A stretch of DNA of 48,146 nucleotides, taken from Gemmatimonadota bacterium (GTDB taxonomy: Bacteria; Gemmatimonadota; Gemmatimonadetes; Longimicrobiales; Gaopeijiaceae). The stretch's first letter is position 1. Each line of letters opens with the position of its first letter. The position numbers were made by a program, and so were the translations under genes. Shown here in pieces: positions 34,757 through 43,518 of the stretch. The DNA is taken from NCBI GenBank assembly GCA_021295815.1, contig JAGWBQ010000015.1, positions 1-48,146 of the forward strand. The letters are read 5' to 3'. The notes below the pieces were generated by a model that worked only from the letters and a program-made list of their open reading frames with translations, was not told the origin of the DNA and did no database searches.

Positions 34757-35548
34757 TCACAAGGCCGACCTCATCTCCCACAGGTCGGGGAAGGCGGGCT
34801 TGACCGTGGTCGCCAGGTAGGCCGCGCCCGCGCTGTCGCCCGTACCCGGTTTGGTGCCGATCGTACGCTCCACAACCTTGACGTGCCTGTACCGCCACTC
34901 CTGGAATCCCTCGTCGAGATCCACGAGACGCTCGCACAGGTTGACCAGCGCCGGGTCGGAGCGGTAGGCCCCGGCCAGCATTTCCTGCACTCCGAGGTCC
35001 GGCGTGACGGGTTCGGTCAGGTCGCGATCGAGGGCGGACTCCGGAACGTGGTACCCTCCGCGGGCCAGAAACCGGAGGAACGCGTCCCAGAGCGACGGCT
35101 CCTCGAGCCTCCTCGCCAAGCGCTGCTGCTCGTCCAGGTCCGGAAAACCCTTGAGCAACGAAGCCCGTTTGATGCCGAGCGTGAACTCCAGCTCCCGGAA
35201 TTGGGCGGACTGGAACCCGCTGGCGGTTTCGAGCCGGTCGCGGAAGGACTCGAACTCCACGGGGGTCATCGTCTCCAGGACGTCCATCTGAGCCACCAGC
35301 ACCTTCATGATAGAGCGCACGCGCCTGAGAGTGGCGGCGACGCGGGCCCCGTCTCCTCCGATCAGGAGCTCGCAGCCGCGATCAAGCTCGTGGAGCGCGG
35401 CCTTGAACCACAGTTCGTGGACCTGGTGCACGATGACGAAGAGCATCTCGTCGTGCTCCGGAGGGTCGGAGAGGGGCCGCTGCAGCGACAGCAGCTCCGG
35501 CAGCGCTATGTACTGCGGGTAGTCCAACGGTTGCGGACTCTCACTCAT
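34757..35548 (-). CDS. kynA: Tryptophan 2,3-dioxygenase
   Basis: 263 residues, normal length. This haem enzyme opens the indole ring of L-tryptophan with O2 to give N-formylkynurenine, the first step of the kynurenine route. Family segments are DEMLFVIVHQVHELWFKAALHEL (with the active-site His), FESFRDRLETASGFQSAQFRELE, RYRHVKVVERTIGTKPGTG and FPDLWEMRSAL. Its ATG overlaps the end of the monooxygenase/reductase gene by 8 bases (ATGAGTGA), making it the last gene of the seven-gene operon. Cytoplasmic. Confidence 0.96.
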   Translation of the reverse strand: MSESPQPLDYPQYIALPELLSLQRPLSDPPEHDEMLFVIVHQVHELWFKAALHELDRGCELLIGGDGARVAATLRRVRSIMKVLVAQMDVLETMTPVEFESFRDRLETASGFQSAQFRELEFTLGIKRASLLKGFPDLDEQQRLARRLEEPSLWDAFLRFLARGGYHVPESALDRDLTEPVTPDLGVQEMLAGAYRSDPALVNLCERLVDLDEGFQEWRYRHVKVVERTIGTKPGTGDSAGAAYLATTVKPAFPDLWEMRSAL

Positions 35549-37895
35549 CTCCGGTATCCGGTCCGTAGGCGCCGCCGGTCGCCCCGAACCGCGGCGTGTA
35601 GTCTTTCAGCGTCTCGTATTGCGAAGGCCACGGAAGGGGATACCCGAGCGCGTGTGCTGCGTGCCTGGTCCAGTACGGGTCCCACAAGTGAGCGCGGGCC
35701 ATGAGGCAGAGATCGGCCCTTCCCGCCGCGATGATCCCGTTCACGTCCTCGAACGACGAGATGTTCCCGACGGCCATCGTGGCGATTCCGACCTCGTGGC
35801 GAATGCGGTCCGCGAAGGGCGTCTGGAACTGACGACCGTACCGGGGCCGCTGGTAGGGGACCGTCTGGCCGGCCGAGACGTCGACGATGTCGCAGCCGCA
35901 GGCCTTGAGCGCGCGCGAAATATCCACGGCGTCCTCGGGCTCGGTGCCCCCGGGCCACCAGTCGACCGCGGACAGGCGCACGGAGAGCGGGCGCTCGTCC
36001 GGCCACAAATCGCGCACGGCCCTCACCACGCGCAGCGGAAAGCGCATCCGGTTCTCTAGGGTTCCGCCGTAGCGGTCGGCCCGACGGTTGGTCAAGGGCG
36101 ACAGGAAACTGGCGAGGAGATACCCGTGCGCCATGTGTATCTCGACGATGTCGAAGCCGGCCTCGATGGCCATCTCGGTCGAGCGTTCGAAATCCGCGAC
36201 CAGCGCGTCCATACCCGCCTCGTCCAGCTCCGCAGGCACAGGGCTGTGCTCGAAGTACCCGACGGGTGATGCCGAAACGATCGGCCAGCCGCCCTCTTCC
36301 AGAGGCTCGTTCGGCCCCTCCCAGTCGAGCCGGGTCGCGCCCTTGCGCCCGGCGTGGCCGAGCTGGATCCCGATCCGCACGGGTGTGAAGCGCTTCACGA
36401 AATCGACGAGACGGCGCCACGCCCCGACGTGTTGGTCCAGATAGATGCCCGCGCATCCCGGCGAGATGCGTCCGTCGCGCCCGACGGCGGTCATCTCGGC
36501 CATGACGAGTCCGGCTCCGCCGACGGCGCGCGACCCGAGGTTGACGAGGTGCCAGTCGTTGACCGAGCCGTCCCGGGCCGAGTACTGGCACATGGCCGAC
36601 ACGCCCACCCGGTTGGGCAGCATGAGTTCCCGAATGCGAAACGGAGTGAATAGAGGGGGCGGAGGCGAGCGGTCTCCAGCGGCGCGCGCGATCCCCAGCG
36701 CAGCTTCGTGCTCAGCTATCGTCACCCCGGCCTGAATCTCCGACTCTCGCGCCACCCAGGCGTCCACCTTCCGGACGAAGGCGGGGTCGCGCTCGCGCAG
36801 GTTCTCGTGGGAGATGCGCAGGCTGCGGGTGAGCAGAGAGAAGCCGAATTGTTCGGGCTCCAGACGGATGTAGCGTTCGGTGTCCTCGAACCATTGGAGG
36901 CTTGCCTGGGCGGCGCGTTGGAGCGACTCCGCCGGGCGGCGACGCTCGGCCTCGTAGGCGGCGAGAGCTCGACCCAGCTCTTCCCGGCCGCGACCGTCCG
37001 GCCCGTTCTCTCGCAACGCCTCCGCAAGACTGATCGCGTCGAGCAAGGCCAGGCGGGTGCCGGACCCCACCGAGAAGTGGGCGGTGTGGGCCGCGTCTCC
37101 GACCAGCACGACGTTGCCTGCCGACCAGCGCACGTTCGTCACCGTCGTGAATCGCCGCCAAGTCGACCGGTTTCGGATCAGCGGGTGGCCGTTCAGCTCC
37201 TCGGCGAACAGGCGCGAGAGGAAGCGGACCGTTTCCTCCTCGCTCGCCGCGTCCATCCCCGCTCGCCGCCAGGTCTCCTCCGTGGCTTCCACGATGAAGG
37301 TCGAGCGGCCCCGGGCGTCGTACTGGTAAGCGTGGACACGCCAGAGTCCGTGCTCGTCTTCTCGGAACCAGAAGGTGAAGGCGGGAAAGGGCCGGGTCGT
37401 CCCCAGCCAGACGAAACGGTTGGGACGCAGGTCGACGGAGGGCTCGAAGGTGTCGGCGAAGCGGCTGCGCACCATGCTGTTGACCCCGTCGGCGCCGATT
37501 ACCAGGTCGGCGTCGAGGAGCGGCCCCAGGTCGTCCGCCTCAGCCTCGAAATTGAGCTCGATCCCGAGCTCGCGGCAGCGGCGGTGCAGCAGCAGAAGGA
37601 GTTCGCGGCGCGAGAGCCCTGCGAAGCCGTGGCCGGTGGACTTCAGTAGGTGGCCCCGATAGTGGATGTGGATGTCGTCCCAGTGGTGGAACCGTTTCTC
37701 GACGGCCCGAAGCGTGGCCGGGTCGGCGTCGGCGACCTCCTGCAGGGTCGCGTCCGAGAAGACGACGCCGAAGCCGAAGGTATCGTCCGGCCGGTTGCGC
37801 TCGAAGACCTCGACGGTTCGGCTCGGGTCGTCCTTCTTGAGGAGCAGCGCGGCGAAGAGTCCGCCGGGTCCGCCCCCGACGACGTTGACCTTCAA
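35541..37895 (-). CDS. 2-aminobenzoyl-CoA (anthraniloyl-CoA) monooxygenase/reductase, two-domain
   Basis: 784 residues in two fused flavin domains. Residues 1 to about 395 are an aromatic-hydroxylase-type FAD monooxygenase (VNVVGGGPGGLFAALLL, GADGVNSMVRSRF, VVLVGDAAHTAHFSVGSGTR). The remainder is an Old Yellow Enzyme-type FMN reductase (LFTPFRIRELMLPNRVGVS, MCQYSARDG, HMAHGYLLASFLSPLTNRR, NRMRFPLRVVRAVR). This fusion is the architecture of the enzyme known from Azoarcus evansii, which hydroxylates and reduces 2-aminobenzoyl-CoA and so removes aromaticity. Salicylyl-CoA 5-hydroxylase is a related possibility, but the neighbouring tryptophan dioxygenase favours aminobenzoyl-CoA. Start is TTG at 37895, overlapping the preceding stop as TTGA. 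The frame is open upstream but that part is shadow. Confidence 0.92.
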   Translation of the reverse strand: MKVNVVGGGPGGLFAALLLKKDDPSRTVEVFERNRPDDTFGFGVVFSDATLQEVADADPATLRAVEKRFHHWDDIHIHYRGHLLKSTGHGFAGLSRRELLLLLHRRCRELGIELNFEAEADDLGPLLDADLVIGADGVNSMVRSRFADTFEPSVDLRPNRFVWLGTTRPFPAFTFWFREDEHGLWRVHAYQYDARGRSTFIVEATEETWRRAGMDAASEEETVRFLSRLFAEELNGHPLIRNRSTWRRFTTVTNVRWSAGNVVLVGDAAHTAHFSVGSGTRLALLDAISLAEALRENGPDGRGREELGRALAAYEAERRRPAESLQRAAQASLQWFEDTERYIRLEPEQFGFSLLTRSLRISHENLRERDPAFVRKVDAWVARESEIQAGVTIAEHEAALGIARAAGDRSPPPPLFTPFRIRELMLPNRVGVSAMCQYSARDGSVNDWHLVNLGSRAVGGAGLVMAEMTAVGRDGRISPGCAGIYLDQHVGAWRRLVDFVKRFTPVRIGIQLGHAGRKGATRLDWEGPNEPLEEGGWPIVSASPVGYFEHSPVPAELDEAGMDALVADFERSTEMAIEAGFDIVEIHMAHGYLLASFLSPLTNRRADRYGGTLENRMRFPLRVVRAVRDLWPDERPLSVRLSAVDWWPGGTEPEDAVDISRALKACGCDIVDVSAGQTVPYQRPRYGRQFQTPFADRIRHEVGIATMAVGNISSFEDVNGIIAAGRADLCLMARAHLWDPYWTRHAAHALGYPLPWPSQYETLKDYTPRFGATGGAYGPDTGDE

Positions 37896-39052
37896 CCTTC
37901 GGAGTCCCGCACCAGGGCTCCCCCGACGATCAGTCGCTGGATCTCCGTCGTCCCTTCGTAGATGCGCAGCCCCCGCACGCTCCGGTAGAGGCGTTCGACC
38001 GGATGCGAGGCCAGCACGCCCCGCCCTCCTAGCACCTGCACCGCCCGGTCGACGATTCGCTGGGCGGCCTCGGTGCAGAAGGCCTTGGCCATCGCCGCCT
38101 CGAGCGTGATGCGCGCCGCGCCCCGGTCCTTCTCCCACCCTGCCCGGTAGGCCAGCAATCGCCCGGCGGTCAGCTCGACGGCCGAATCGGCGAGCTTGGC
38201 CTGGACGAGCTGGAAGGATCCGAGCGGCTTCCCGAACTGTTTGCGGCTCCGAGCATGCTCGATGGCCTCGAAGAGCGCCCGTCCCGCCATCCCGCACGCC
38301 GCAGCCGCCACGGTGGGACGAAGCCGGTCCAGCGTCGCCATCCCGGTCTTGAAGCCGGTTCCGGGCTCGCCCAGCATGGCCGAGGCCGACACGCGGCAGC
38401 CGTCGAGGCGGATCTCGCCGAGCGGATGCGGTGCGCTCATCACCTGCGCACCGACGAACTCCAGTCCCGGTGCGTCGGCGGGCACCACGAAGCACGAAAT
38501 GCCGCGCGTTCCCGCACTCGGATCGGTCGTCGCGAAGACCACGTAGAAGTCGGCGATGCCTGCGTTCGAAATGAAGGCCTTGCCGCCGTTGAGCACATAG
38601 CGGCCCGCGCCGTCGGGCACGGCCGCCGTTGCGAGCGCGGCCACGTCCGAACCCGCCTCCCGCTCGGTCATCGCGAATGCGCCGATCGCGTCGCCCGCGA
38701 GAGCCCGCGCCGTCCAACCCCCAGGGTCCTCGCCGCGAATCAGCCCCGGAGTAGCGCTCAGCCCCTGCAACGCGAAAACCGAATCGGCCAGCGGCGACCA
38801 CCACGCCAGCGCCTCGCGCGCGATCAGGCAGCCGCGAACGTCACCCGCGCGGATCGGCTCGAAGAGCCCCGCCGTTCCCATCCGCCCCACCAGCTCCTTC
38901 GCCCGTTTCCGCGCTGCGGAGTCGCTCTCCGGATCGCCCTCGTTCCCGATTTCCTCGCGGCAGAACGCCCGAACCCGCTCGACGTACCTGCGGTGCGACG
39001 GCTCCACGAACGCTGCCACGGCATCGAGCGAGAGCCCGCGCCGGTCAATCAA
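37892..39052 (-). CDS. Acyl-CoA dehydrogenase
   Basis: 386 residues from a TTG (39052) that overlaps the previous gene by 8 bases (TTGATTGA); a later in-frame GTG is an alternative. FAD-dependent enzyme oxidising an acyl-CoA at C2-C3. Visible are FAMTEREAGSDVAAL (flavin and substrate loop), VLNGGKAFISNAGIADFYVV, ARSRKQFGKPLGSFQLVQAK and AVQVLGGRGVL. RGLRIYEGTTEIQR holds the catalytic Glu (E of YEG). In this operon the substrate is probably a cyclohexane or cyclohexene carboxyl-CoA made after dearomatisation, or the opened C7 acyl-CoA. Cytoplasmic. Confidence 0.92.
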   Translation of the reverse strand: MIDRRGLSLDAVAAFVEPSHRRYVERVRAFCREEIGNEGDPESDSAARKRAKELVGRMGTAGLFEPIRAGDVRGCLIAREALAWWSPLADSVFALQGLSATPGLIRGEDPGGWTARALAGDAIGAFAMTEREAGSDVAALATAAVPDGAGRYVLNGGKAFISNAGIADFYVVFATTDPSAGTRGISCFVVPADAPGLEFVGAQVMSAPHPLGEIRLDGCRVSASAMLGEPGTGFKTGMATLDRLRPTVAAAACGMAGRALFEAIEHARSRKQFGKPLGSFQLVQAKLADSAVELTAGRLLAYRAGWEKDRGAARITLEAAMAKAFCTEAAQRIVDRAVQVLGGRGVLASHPVERLYRSVRGLRIYEGTTEIQRLIVGGALVRDSEG

Positions 39053-39866
39053 AGCGCGGCCTTCGCTTCTCGACGAACGCTTGGTAGGCCTCGAGAAAGT
39101 TCGGGTCCTGCATGCACTTCGCCTGGGCGCGCGCCTCGGCCTCGAGCGCAACCTCCATTTCCATGTGCGCCTCCCGGTTGAGAGCCTCCTTGGTGACCTT
39201 CAGCGCGAACGACGGACCTCGGGCCAGCTCCTCGGCAAGCTCCGTCGCCGCCGCCAACGCCTCGCCGTCCGGGACCACGCGGTTGTAGAGTCCGATGCGG
39301 TGGGCCTCGGTCGCGTCGATGAACGCGCCGGTCATCAGCAGCTCGGAGGCACGTCCGAAGCCCACGATCCGCGGCAGCAGCCACGCCGCTCCCATGTCCG
39401 CCCCGGAGAGTCCCACTCGGGTGAAGAGATACGCGATCCGCGCCGACTCCGCCGCCACGCGCACGTCGCAGGCCGTCGCGATTGCGGCGCCGGCCCCCGC
39501 CACCGTGCCGTTCAGTGCGCCGACCACCGGCTGTCGGCACGCCCGGATAGCCGCGATCAGGTCGCAGGTCATGCGCGTGAAATCGAGCAGTCCGTCGAAG
39601 TCGAGCTCGAACAACGCACCGATGATCTCTTCCACGTCGCCGCCGGTGCAGAATCCCCGCCCCGCTCCGGTGATCGCTATCGCCCGTACCTCGGGTGTAG
39701 CGTCCAGCCCCCGGAACGTGTTTCTCAGCTCGTCGTAGACCTCGAAGGTGAGTGCGTTCAGCCGCTCCGGGCGGTTCAGCGTGATGCGAGCGACCTTCGT
39801 GTTCGCGTCGAAGTCCAGCAGGAAGGAACTAGGCGGCTCGGTGAGAGGGGACTTGAGATCGGTCAC
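39045..39866 (-). CDS. Enoyl-CoA hydratase/isomerase-family protein without the usual Glu pair
   Basis: 273 residues of the crotonase fold. Oxyanion-hole segments GFCTGGDVEEI and NGTVAGAGAAIATACD are intact, so acyl-CoA thioester binding is expected. Aligned by eye to rat enoyl-CoA hydratase, the two catalytic glutamates fall on Ala (AGAGAAIA) and Thr (YLFTRVGL), while an Asp appears in LSGADMGAAWLLPR. True hydration of a double bond is therefore doubtful; isomerisation or hydrolytic C-C ring cleavage of a cyclic ketoacyl-CoA, as BadI does, is more plausible in this pathway. Starts inside the RidA stop (ATGA) and overlaps the acyl-CoA dehydrogenase. Confidence 0.88.
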   Translation of the reverse strand: MTDLKSPLTEPPSSFLLDFDANTKVARITLNRPERLNALTFEVYDELRNTFRGLDATPEVRAIAITGAGRGFCTGGDVEEIIGALFELDFDGLLDFTRMTCDLIAAIRACRQPVVGALNGTVAGAGAAIATACDVRVAAESARIAYLFTRVGLSGADMGAAWLLPRIVGFGRASELLMTGAFIDATEAHRIGLYNRVVPDGEALAAATELAEELARGPSFALKVTKEALNREAHMEMEVALEAEARAQAKCMQDPNFLEAYQAFVEKRRPRFD

Positions 39867-40318
39867 GGCTGCTCCTCGGCGGCCGCCCTTGCGGGCTCCA
39901 CCTCATCGGTTCGCTTACTCGGAACGACGGCCGTGGCCTCGATCTCGACCACCGCCTTCGGGTCGACGAGCTCGGTGACTGCGACGAGCGACATGGCGGG
40001 GAAGTGTTTCCCAAACACCGACCCGTAAGCGGTCCCGATTTCGGCCAGCGATTCGCGATAGACATCCATGTCGGTCACGTAAATGGTCAGCCGGCCGACA
40101 TCGGCTACCCGTCCCCCGGCCTCTTCCACCACCCGCGCCACGTTGACGAGGGCGGCGCCGAACTGTGCGGACATCCCGGATTCGCTTCCCGCGCCGACCG
40201 GTCCCACACCGATCTGCCCCGCCACGAAGAGCGTCCGCCCGCCCTCCGGTGCGAGCATGCCGTTGTTCCAGCCTCGGGGAGGCCCGAGAGCCTCCGGGTT
40301 GAAGATCTCGAAAGTCAT
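39863..40318 (-). CDS. RidA/YjgF/UK114-family protein lacking the signature arginine
   Basis: 151 residues. The Rid fold is seen from TLFVAGQIGVGPVG, FGAALVNVARVVEEAGGRVADVGRLTIYV and VVEIEATAVVP. RidA proteins hydrolyse reactive enamines/imines to ketones and ammonia. The Arg that binds the substrate carboxylate in archetypal RidA (in PARxxVEV) is Met here (FPAMSLVAV), placing it in a divergent Rid subgroup. In this operon the likely substrate is the enamine/imine formed after 2-aminobenzoyl-CoA is dearomatised, which would release the amino nitrogen. A CoA-bound carboxyl no longer needs that Arg, which fits. The tail is acidic and Ala-rich. Overlaps both neighbours (ATGA at each end). Confidence 0.9.
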   Translation of the reverse strand: MTFEIFNPEALGPPRGWNNGMLAPEGGRTLFVAGQIGVGPVGAGSESGMSAQFGAALVNVARVVEEAGGRVADVGRLTIYVTDMDVYRESLAEIGTAYGSVFGKHFPAMSLVAVTELVDPKAVVEIEATAVVPSKRTDEVEPARAAAEEQP

Positions 40319-41118
40319 CGCTCTCCGTCGGTCGCAGCGCGGCCGCCTCCTCCCCGCACCACGAGTTCGCTCCCCTGCAGCGCGCCTGCCGCTTCCGACA
40401 TGAAGGTCATCATTGTGTGCGCCACCTCCTCGGGTGTGATCATGCGCCCCCCCGGTTGCATGTTCTCGAGTCCCTTCCTGATTCCCGCCGCATCCCGCCC
40501 CGTGGTCGTGGCGATGCGTTCGATGTTCCGATCCGTCATCGGCGTGTCCACGTAGCTCGGGCAGACGGAGTTAACGGTGACGCCGGTGCCGCTCAGCTCC
40601 TCGGCGAGGCAGCGCACCATACCCAGGAGCGCATGTTTGGAGGCCGCATAGGAGGTGATGTAGCGCGACCCCGAGAGGCCCGCGATCGACCCGACGTTCA
40701 CGATCCGTCCCCAGCCGCGCCGGAGCATCTCGGGCAAGAACGCCTGGGTGACGAGGAGCGGCCCAGTCGCGTTCACGCGGTGGAGCTCCTCCCACTGCTC
40801 CATGGTCACCTTGAGGAAGGGCGCCGATCGGGACGCTCCCGCGTTGTTGACCACGATATCGACGCTGCCGACCAGTTCGCCCGCTCGGGCGGCCATCGCC
40901 GCCACCGAGTTCCGATCGGTCACGTCGCAGGCCACCGCGTGCACCGTCCGACCGTCGCGCCGCAATGCCTCGGCCACCGCTCCGATCTCGTGCAAGCTGC
41001 GGGCCGCGACCACCACCGCCGCCCCTTCCTCCGCGAGCGCGCGGGCTGCTGCGGCGCCGATGCCGCGCCCGCCGCCGGTCACCACGGCCTTCCGTCCGGC
41101 CAGCTCGCCGCGTGTCAC
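40315..41118 (-). CDS. SDR-family oxidoreductase (3-hydroxyacyl-CoA dehydrogenase type)
   Basis: 267 residues from the GTG at 41118, which overlaps the creatininase-family stop as GTGA. Classical SDR: VTGGGRGIGAAAARALAEEG (cofactor), VNNAGAS, NVGSIAGLSGS (catalytic Ser) and SYAASKHAL (Tyr and Lys both present). NSVCPSYVDTPMT follows. In context it probably acts on the oxo or hydroxy group introduced by the monooxygenase/reductase, or on a 3-hydroxyacyl-CoA after ring opening. Substrate specificity cannot be read from the sequence. Cofactor preference is unclear. Confidence 0.9.
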   Translation of the reverse strand: MTRGELAGRKAVVTGGGRGIGAAAARALAEEGAAVVVAARSLHEIGAVAEALRRDGRTVHAVACDVTDRNSVAAMAARAGELVGSVDIVVNNAGASRSAPFLKVTMEQWEELHRVNATGPLLVTQAFLPEMLRRGWGRIVNVGSIAGLSGSRYITSYAASKHALLGMVRCLAEELSGTGVTVNSVCPSYVDTPMTDRNIERIATTTGRDAAGIRKGLENMQPGGRMITPEEVAHTMMTFMSEAAGALQGSELVVRGGGGRAATDGER

Positions 41119-41918
41119 TCCGAACGCTGCCCAGGCGCCAGCGTTTCGGCGAGTGCGTCCACCATGATCCGCGCCAGCGCCTCGGTCGAAGCTTCGCCCT
41201 CTTCGGCGGTCGCCGCCGCGGGATCCCCGCAATACGCCTCCCCGACACCCGCCTCCTCGAAGGTGGTCGCGCCGGCCCGGATCGCGACCGAGAGCGATGC
41301 CGGGTTCGCGGACAGTCCGCGCCGGGTTTCGTCCCGCACCAGTTCCGGCGCCGCCGTCATCACGACCGAGGTCTCGAAGCTCCCCGCGTGGCACGCCCCG
41401 CTCCTGAATTCGGTGGTGAGTCGCGAGGCCCAGCGCCGCTCCGTGAGGTCGGGATGGATGACGGGCATCCGGCCGTCGCGCGCGCAGGCTGCCCGGATCG
41501 CGGCCAGGTGGGCGGGGTCGAGGTGAGCGTTGACCACGACGAGCGCGGCTGCGCCCTGGTGTTCGAGCGAGTCGGCCACATCGGCCAGCAGGGCGGAGAA
41601 GGTGGCCGGACGCACCGAAATCGTTCCCGCGAACCCGTCCGCGAAGGGGGCCGCCGTATAGGCGAGCGGCGGTAGGACCAGGGGATGGAGGTCCAGGGCC
41701 CGGAGCCCGGGCAGCGCGGCTTCAGCGACCGCGGACGAGATGATCACGTCGGTGGTGAGCGGGAGGTGGGGGCCGTGCGCCTCGACCGCGCCGACCGGGA
41801 GAAGTGCCACGACGCGGGAACTGCCAAGGCCCGCAGCCTCGTTCGTCGCTGGCGCTCGCCCCAGACCGAGCCCGTCGAGTTCGGTCCAGGTCGCGCTACC
41901 CCAGAGGTGGTTGTCCAT
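41115..41918 (-). CDS. Creatininase-family metal-dependent amidohydrolase, first gene of the tryptophan/anthraniloyl-CoA operon
   Basis: 267 residues. LLPVGAVEAHGPHLPLTTD gives Glu, His and Asp metal ligands of the creatininase family, and GACHAGSFETS the later conserved HAG.ETS. The third element reads VVNAHLDPAHL where most members have NGHGGN; the His is kept. The family hydrolyses small cyclic or formyl amides: creatininase itself, the ArfB deformylase, and the mycofactocin peptidase MftE. In this operon it may remove the formyl group of N-formylkynurenine, since no standard kynurenine formamidase is present; this is a hypothesis. Start at ATG 41918, preceded by an overlapping short ORF with a much stronger ribosome site. 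Confidence 0.85.
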   Translation of the reverse strand: MDNHLWGSATWTELDGLGLGRAPATNEAAGLGSSRVVALLPVGAVEAHGPHLPLTTDVIISSAVAEAALPGLRALDLHPLVLPPLAYTAAPFADGFAGTISVRPATFSALLADVADSLEHQGAAALVVVNAHLDPAHLAAIRAACARDGRMPVIHPDLTERRWASRLTTEFRSGACHAGSFETSVVMTAAPELVRDETRRGLSANPASLSVAIRAGATTFEEAGVGEAYCGDPAAATAEEGEASTEALARIMVDALAETLAPGQRSE

Positions 41919-41979: not shown

Positions 41980-43518
41980 ATGTCCTTCGAGCCGCCCAAC
42001 CCGTTCAACATCGCCGACTACTTCCTGGACGACCGAGTCCGAGAAGGGAACGGCGGCCGCGTCGCGCTCCGCACGGCTGACGGAAACGTCACCTACGCGG
42101 AGTTGCAGGCGCGGGCCGACCGTTTCGCCAACGCGCTCGGCGGCCTCGGCGTGCGGCCCGAGCAGCGGGTTCTGATCGCGCTCCCCGACGTGCCCGATTT
42201 CGCTGCGGCGCTCTTCGGCACGCTCAAGGCGGGCGCCGTCGGGGTGATGGTTAATCGCTTCCTCGACGAGCGCCGGCTCCGCGACCTCTGCGACTACACG
42301 CGGGCCGCTGCGGTCGTCCTGCAAGCGGATCAGCGGGAGCCCTTCGACCGGGCCGCGGCCTCCGCCAGAGCCCGCCCCCGTCTCCTCGTGCTCGGAACCG
42401 AGGAAGGGGAACGGGTGGTGGGCGACTCCGACCCGCATTTCGACAACTTCCGTTCCCACTCCGACGATCCGGCGATCTGGCTCTTCTCGGGCGGAACGAC
42501 CGGGCTTCCGAAAGGCGTCGTTCAGAGCCACGCCTCGTTCGCCAACTCGACCGAACGCTACGCCCGCCGAGTGATCGGCTACGCGCCCGACGACGTCACC
42601 ATCTCGGTGCCGAAGCTCTTCTTCGGCTACGCCACCGGCTCCAACCTCCTCTTTCCGCTCGCCGCAGGAGGGTCCGCCGTGCTTTTCCCGGAGCGTTGCA
42701 CCGCCGACGAGCTCTTCGCTCAGATCGCCCGGCACCGCCCCACGATCCTCGTGAACGTGCCTACCATGGCGAACCAGATGGTGACGCACCCCCGCGCCCA
42801 CGAGCAGGACCTGAGCTGTCTTCGGCTCGCCACCACGGCAGGCGAGGCCCTTCCCGCTTCGCTTCATCGCCGGTGGAACGACACCTTCGGCGTTGAGCTG
42901 CTCGACGGTCTGGGCACGGCCGAAATGTGGCACGTGTTCATCTCGAACCGCCCCGGCGAGGTTCGGCCCGGCACCCTCGGCACCGCGGTTCCCGGCTTCG
43001 ACGTGCGGCTCTGCGACGACGACGGCCGCGAGGTGCCGCCCGGCGAGCTGGGCCGCATGCGCGTCCGGGGCGGCTCCCGGGCGCACGGCTACTGGCAGCG
43101 TCCTCGCGAGACGCGTCGCGCCTTCGCCCACGACTGGTACGTCTCCGGCGACATGATGACCCGTGACGAGGACGGGTACTTCACCTACCAGGGACGCTCC
43201 GACGACCTCCTCAAGGTCTCGGGCAAGTGGTTCTCTCCGGCGGAGGCCGAAGAGCGGCTGCTGGCCCACGTCGATGTCCGCGAGGCCGCGGTCGTGGGGG
43301 TCGAGGACGCCGACGGACTCGTGGTCCCGGTGGCGTTCGTTATCCTGGCGGATGGATCGCCTGCGGACGCGACGGACCTGCGTACTCACGCCCGCAACCG
43401 CATGGAATCCTACAAGATCCCGCGAGCGATCCACCTGCTCGACGACTTCCCACGTACTCACCTGGGCAAGGTGGACCGCAGGGCGCTCAAGTCGATGGCG
43501 GCGGGGTCATGCTTCTAA
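41980..43518 (+). CDS. Benzoate/2-aminobenzoate-CoA ligase-type acyl-CoA synthetase
   Basis: 512 residues of the AMP-forming ligase superfamily. LFSGGTTGLPKGVVQSH is the P-loop motif, DGLGTAEMWHVFISNRPGEV the A5-type motif in the form typical of benzoate-CoA ligases (TEM..IF.SNRPG), GDMMTRDEDGYFTYQGRSDD holds the Asp/Arg pair, and HLGKVDRRALK the C-terminal catalytic Lys. It activates an aromatic acid with ATP and CoA; anthranilate is the likely substrate given the divergent operon. Start at the ATG 41980 after a TAGATTC-type palindromic-looking CTAG stretch; no strong ribosome site. A 61-base gap separates it from the opposite operon start, so both may share regulation. Confidence 0.92.
   Translation: MSFEPPNPFNIADYFLDDRVREGNGGRVALRTADGNVTYAELQARADRFANALGGLGVRPEQRVLIALPDVPDFAAALFGTLKAGAVGVMVNRFLDERRLRDLCDYTRAAAVVLQADQREPFDRAAASARARPRLLVLGTEEGERVVGDSDPHFDNFRSHSDDPAIWLFSGGTTGLPKGVVQSHASFANSTERYARRVIGYAPDDVTISVPKLFFGYATGSNLLFPLAAGGSAVLFPERCTADELFAQIARHRPTILVNVPTMANQMVTHPRAHEQDLSCLRLATTAGEALPASLHRRWNDTFGVELLDGLGTAEMWHVFISNRPGEVRPGTLGTAVPGFDVRLCDDDGREVPPGELGRMRVRGGSRAHGYWQRPRETRRAFAHDWYVSGDMMTRDEDGYFTYQGRSDDLLKVSGKWFSPAEAEERLLAHVDVREAAVVGVEDADGLVVPVAFVILADGSPADATDLRTHARNRMESYKIPRAIHLLDDFPRTHLGKVDRRALKSMAAGSCF

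Follow-up and report, generated by a model that had tools for sequence, protein, structure and literature searches.

The window, i.e. the whole stretch of 48,146 nucleotides that was analysed, contains a run of seven genes in the order CRN-SDR-RidA-ECH-ACAD-ACMR-TDO, with CRN being the first gene and TDO the last; the six junctions are overlaps of 4 or 8 bp each, and CRN is separated by 61 bp from a divergently oriented CoA ligase gene, which we refer to as LIG-A. The features are listed below:

41115..41918, minus strand: CRN, creatininase-family hydrolase of 267 aa (open reading frame, Pfam, NCBIfam, motif, AF2 model)
40315..41118, minus strand: SDR, short-chain dehydrogenase, overlapping CRN by 4 bp
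39863..40318, minus strand: RidA-family imine/enamine deaminase, overlapping SDR by 4 bp
39045..39866, minus strand: ECH, enoyl-CoA hydratase family protein (NF006107, over the cut-off)
37892..39052, minus strand: ACAD, acyl-CoA dehydrogenase (Pfam, NCBIfam)
35541..37895, minus strand: ACMR (also MON), fused FAD monooxygenase and old-yellow-enzyme (OYE) reductase of the 2-aminobenzoyl-CoA monooxygenase/reductase type (NF006101, 1077.8 bits, cut-off 1078)
34757..35548, minus strand: TDO, tryptophan 2,3-dioxygenase family (PF03301, 189 bits; TIGR03036, 262 bits, below the cut-off of 390.7)
41980..43518, plus strand: LIG-A, benzoate/anthranilate-type CoA ligase of the CRN-linked clade (TIGR02262, 467 bits, cut-off 375)

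The earlier note, which had described the gene at 41115-41918 as the first of an operon that holds TDO and lacks the cyclase-type formamidase KynB, is thus borne out. The combination of a fused monooxygenase/OYE gene with a CoA ligase, RidA and beta-oxidation-type genes, seen in the window and in its relatives, is that of a 2-aminobenzoyl-CoA pathway cluster. In most loci CRN adjoins the ligase and is followed by SDR, RidA, ECH, ACAD and ACMR, with TDO often being last; CRN and the ligase are transcribed divergently in Gemmatimonadota and in the same direction in Sphingomonas. The operon as part of a route from tryptophan through anthranilate to 2-aminobenzoyl-CoA, with no recognisable KynB, is supported.

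The coding region of CRN, called from codon usage and length, starts at the ATG at 41918; an upstream in-frame ATG at 42011 has no support from the relatives. The protein belongs to PF02633 (170.1 bits, gathering threshold 31.3), and no NCBIfam equivalog model is matched over its cut-off: the best match is MftE (TIGR03964, 100.3 bits over 230 residues, cut-off 172), while the models of true creatininase (TIGR04448, 76 bits, cut-off 235) and of IolN (NF041098, 36 bits, cut-off 245) are matched below theirs, and no ArfB/BrbF model is found among the NCBIfam matches. One scan of genome contigs has yielded 80 relatives, from Gemmatimonadota, Acidobacteriota, a few other phyla and Sphingomonas. Two further creatininase-type genes were encountered: a distant relative with 28% identity and a signal-peptide-like N-terminus (L108:9541-10479), in a genome without an anthranilate operon, and a member of a sister subfamily with the motif NNHFEP (L121:10296-11144, genome G108), which is flanked by a 969-aa LLM-ACMR fusion and by hydantoinase/ligase genes of a different degradation cluster. 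Genome G108 carries KynB-like genes and no strong match to KYU, the divergent kynureninase described below; its creatininase was considered as a counterexample to CRN and was rejected, as it belongs to this other subfamily.

The metal site of CRN is contained in the motifs VEAHGPHLP..TD, NAHLDP and ACHAG..ETS. An alignment of 35 relatives has revealed that residues E46, H48, D57, H132, D134, H177 and E182 are invariant, and the pattern [NS]xH[LF]DP occurs in all 76 gene-called relatives; HGG is found at the same place in 8/8 other PF02633 proteins from plasmids, mostly as NGHGGN or SGHGGN. The claim that the metal ligands are kept while NAHLDP stands in place of NGHGGN has therefore been confirmed. 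Residues E46/H48/D57/H132/D134 align with E34/H36/D45/H120/E122 of creatininase, of which Glu122 is a metal ligand; the predicted metal-binding set of Glu, His, Asp, His and an acid is hence complete, and since D134 restores the acid at the position of Glu122, the NAHLDP motif gives no hint of a dead site. The substrate, on the other hand, is not readable from the motif. The AlphaFold (AF2) model of CRN (pLDDT 92.6) is closest to creatininase (Foldseek, 1e-13; VIA-align against 1q3k, Z of 23.4 with an rmsd of 2.7 across 236 residues), and it has the creatininase fold.

The second protein of interest, KYU, is a PLP protein of 400 residues, encoded directly after TDO in 31 loci (L001:17117-18370 and 30 others); in the window's own genome it lies on another contig (C4:83203-84357; L115:8114-9412). 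It scores only 28.7 bits against the kynureninase model TIGR01814 (cut-off 246.4), while the best Foldseek match of its predicted structure is the kynureninase of P. fluorescens (1qz9, E 2e-21), and the alignment with 1qz9 indicates that the PLP lysine in YK, the DxxH motif, the tryptophan of GWF and the C-terminal arginine are kept. In several genomes TDO and KYU form a pair of genes that is not accompanied by any recognisable formamidase. Kynureninase is able to cleave N-formylkynurenine, according to reaction databases and old literature; our search of the open literature found no paper on this direct cleavage, and nothing relevant on a creatininase acting as a kynurenine formamidase or with 2-aminobenzoyl-CoA.

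No KynB is encoded in the window, and a search with the cyclase-type model TIGR03035 (arylformamidase, cut-off 223 bits) has found none over the cut-off in any of 74 genomes, with the reservation that weaker KynB-like proteins of 134-202 bits occur in 6/47 CRN genomes and in G020. In the latter genome, a KynB-like gene and a canonical kynureninase form a pair without a TDO of their own (L082:6366-8470), and the same genome also has TDO-KYU and CRN; elsewhere in Gemmatimonadota, TDO adjoins a KynB-like gene (L120, L131). The only PF04199 protein of the window's own genome (L081:9012-9839, contig C5), which has the KynB/cyclase fold in the form of a secreted lipoprotein and is conserved in close relatives, was rejected as KynB, being a lipoprotein with 68 bits.

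In the first set of genomes with CRN, TDO is present in 38/38 and ACMR in 37/38, the exception being G032, which has CRN and TDO without ACMR. In the set of 200 Gemmatimonadota genomes, 48 have a strong CRN match and 61 a strong KYU match, with 47 genomes carrying both, one carrying CRN without KYU, 14 carrying KYU without CRN and 138 neither; TDO was found in 45 of the 48 genomes with CRN, and the operon genes of the other three are cut or partial. Among the KYU genomes, CRN occurs with ACMR in 45 and without it in two, while CRN is missing from two genomes with ACMR and from 12 without it (Fisher P=4.4e-9, a value that treats phylogenetically dependent genomes as separate and so overstates their independence); in the two genomes that have ACMR and lack CRN, the contig ends within ~1 kb of ACMR. 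The 12 genomes that lack both genes contain TDO and KYU, and no KynB over the cut-off, so that the expectation that CRN would occur wherever TDO and a kynureninase are found without KynB does not hold. We have likewise withdrawn the perfect co-occurrence with TDO as proof of an N-formylkynurenine formamidase, since in the wider set the TDO-KYU genomes without ACMR lack CRN; TDO as the closest partner of CRN is not supported.

Of 176 genomes of the order Sphingomonadales, 82 have ACMR, 26 have KYU and 12 have both, and it is only among these 12 that CRN is found (2/12 versus 0/164; P=0.004, with the same reservation on independence). Eight of the ten KYU+ACMR genomes without CRN hold a lone ACMR gene and are therefore no test of the need for CRN; the other two, G388 and G402, carry KYU and a full ACMR operon that ends in LIG-B, the other ligase type, and are real exceptions.

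The ligases of six ACMR clusters without CRN form one clade (support 100/100), while the CRN-linked ligases form a separate one (100/99), the rows of which were picked for their nearness to CRN, so that a constant association of LIG-A with CRN is not established by this tree; a very divergent, CRN-free Azospirillum ligase and the second ligase of locus L041 lie outside both clades, on long branches. The Rue61a ligase, for which anthranilate-CoA ligase activity has been measured (PMC3534580), falls in the CRN-free clade. Equivalent Sphingomonadales operons end either in LIG-B (L146, L149) or in LIG-A-CRN (L125): the gene order is ACMR-SDR-MarR-ECH-ACAD-TE-RidA-LIG-CRN in G284 and ACMR-SDR-ECH-ACAD-TE-RidA-LIG in G388 and G402, and in other Sphingomonas genomes there is no ligase beside the ACMR operon, with LIG-A-CRN being located elsewhere. 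The unit that is exchanged is thus an entry module, i.e. LIG-B alone, or LIG-A together with CRN, so that CRN and the ligase probably work side by side in the entry step. In Sphingomonas leidyi, a cyclase-fold gene adjoins genes that resemble indolepyruvate ferredoxin oxidoreductase, at a distance of ~11 kb from ACMR (L098:2584-6927); these genes resemble those that adjoin the Azospirillum ACMR cluster (L093).

Taken together, the pattern is that CRN requires the KYU type of kynureninase as well as the anthranilate-CoA branch, and that it is found with one type of ligase, which places it between the product of KYU and 2-aminobenzoyl-CoA. In the reading that we prefer, to which we would give close to an even chance, CRN and LIG-A act together where the aerobic 2-aminobenzoyl-CoA pathway begins, and CRN, as a dinuclear-metal amidohydrolase, would remove the formyl group of an aromatic formylamine, most likely N-formylanthranilate or N-formylanthraniloyl-CoA; the tie to the ligase type fits these compounds better than it fits N-formylkynurenine. 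More tentatively, we propose that the steps of the kynurenine route are re-ordered in Gemmatimonadota, Acidobacteriota and Sphingomonas: TDO would convert tryptophan to N-formylkynurenine, which KYU would cleave directly to N-formylanthranilate and alanine, and the formyl group would be removed only later, from N-formylanthranilate or its CoA ester, by CRN, a new creatininase-family deformylase of the [NS]xH[LF]DP type, which would make up a module together with a CoA-ligase clade specific to it. The deformylation by CRN and the activation with CoA by LIG-A may occur in either order, the substrate of LIG-A being presumably anthranilate or the formyl derivative accordingly, and the downstream steps would be those of ACMR, RidA, SDR, ECH and ACAD. 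Several observations count against the preferred reading: the absence of CRN from G388 and G402, the weak KynB-like proteins, the presence of CRN without ACMR in G032, and the NNHFEP sister subfamily, whose neighbours are an ACMR-LLM fusion and a ligase, in a genome that bears KynB-like genes and has no strong KYU.

The role proposed by the earlier note, that of a non-orthologous kynurenine formamidase which hydrolyses N-formylkynurenine before KYU acts, is ranked second, and we regard it as unlikely. The part of that proposal which has stood is the setting: TDO is present nearly wherever CRN is, in the same operon, genomes that have CRN without TDO and the divergent kynureninase are rare, KynB over the cut-off is absent from these genomes, and there is a formamidase precedent of the PF02633 type in BrbF (PMC9478397). 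The part which is less well supported is the substrate, since the 12 TDO-KYU genomes described above manage without CRN as well as without KynB over the cut-off and ACMR, and the ligase to whose clade CRN is linked acts after kynurenine. An operon remnant in G230 (L114:7196-10335) is instructive in this respect: a shortened ECH, TDO and KYU have been kept, while CRN, the ligase and ACMR are gone; if CRN were a formamidase required for the passage from TDO to KYU, one would expect it to have persisted there, so its loss with the anthranilate branch speaks against N-formylkynurenine as the substrate.

A role after ACMR, in which CRN would open the ring of a cyclic beta-keto thioester or hydrolyse a later intermediate, has also been weakened, and we consider it improbable, even though CRN tracks ACMR within the TDO/KYU genomes, the NNHFEP sister subfamily also lies beside an ACMR-type gene, and the weak match to IolN, a 3-dehydro-scyllo-inosose hydrolase of the creatininase family, offers the analogy of a cyclic diketone. 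The ring pathway can do without CRN, which is missing from many ACMR operons: clusters with SDR, ECH, ACAD, a ligase and, mostly, RidA that lack CRN are found in Azospirillum, Comamonas, G144, G388, G402 and elsewhere, and the swap described above sits at the position of the ligase. The possibility that CRN stands in for the hot-dog thioesterase of the proteobacterial, CRN-free operons was rejected, as the operon of G284 has both genes. That CRN is linked with the ligase module, and not with the steps of ring breakdown, would also suit the hydrolysis of some other amide or lactam that feeds anthranilate to LIG-A, e.g. an N-acylanthranilate or an indole-derived lactam, and bacterial indole-acetate breakdown, which also ends in anthranilate, uses a cyclase-fold amidase (PMC12633357); the near-complete co-occurrence with TDO and KYU, which would not be expected from other amide sources, makes this the least probable of the readings. 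Our best guess for CRN is hence a formamidase that would act at the ligase step, with N-formylanthranilate and not N-formylkynurenine as its substrate; ring opening is less likely.

If the preferred reading is correct, a missing step in the tryptophan catabolism of lineages without KynB would be filled, an unnamed creatininase subfamily that is conserved across several phyla would gain a function, and the removal of the formyl group would be seen to be able to shift behind the kynureninase step. KYU, LIG-A and CRN are three directly testable enzymes, some of them from culturable Sphingomonas species.

With regard to known systems, MftE, the mycofactocin peptidase, is the best NCBIfam match of CRN, but a match below the cut-off, and no mycofactocin genes were recognised among the genes of the operon. 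The creatininase of P. putida (1j2t/1q3k) shares with CRN the fold (Z 23, 25% identity), the aligned residues E34, H36, D45 and H120, and an acid at the position of Glu122; CRN differs from it in the score of 76 bits against the cut-off of 235, in having Asp for Glu122 with a Pro after it, and in its gene context. The aerobic 2-aminobenzoate CoA clusters of the type of Azoarcus evansii and of pAL1 of Arthrobacter Rue61a (PMC3534580) have in common with the operon the CoA ligase, ACMR, RidA and, in several of them, beta-oxidation-type enzymes, whereas the CRN-free clusters that were examined (that of Azoarcus evansii is not among them) have no CRN, TDO or KYU nearby, and their ligases belong to the other clade. 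KynB (PF04199, TIGR03035) is unrelated to CRN in fold, but its reaction, in which a formylated aminoaryl compound loses its formyl group during the breakdown of tryptophan, is analogous to the one that is proposed for CRN. The riboflavin formamidases BrbF and ArfB also carry out the type of reaction that CRN may catalyse: BrbF, an enzyme annotated as creatininase, is a proven formamidase that frees formate from a formylamino-pyrimidine and is, according to its own paper, without sequence similarity to ArfB (PMC9478397); unlike these enzymes, the genes of the [NS]xH[LF]DP subfamily are located not among riboflavin genes but in the anthranilate-CoA cluster.
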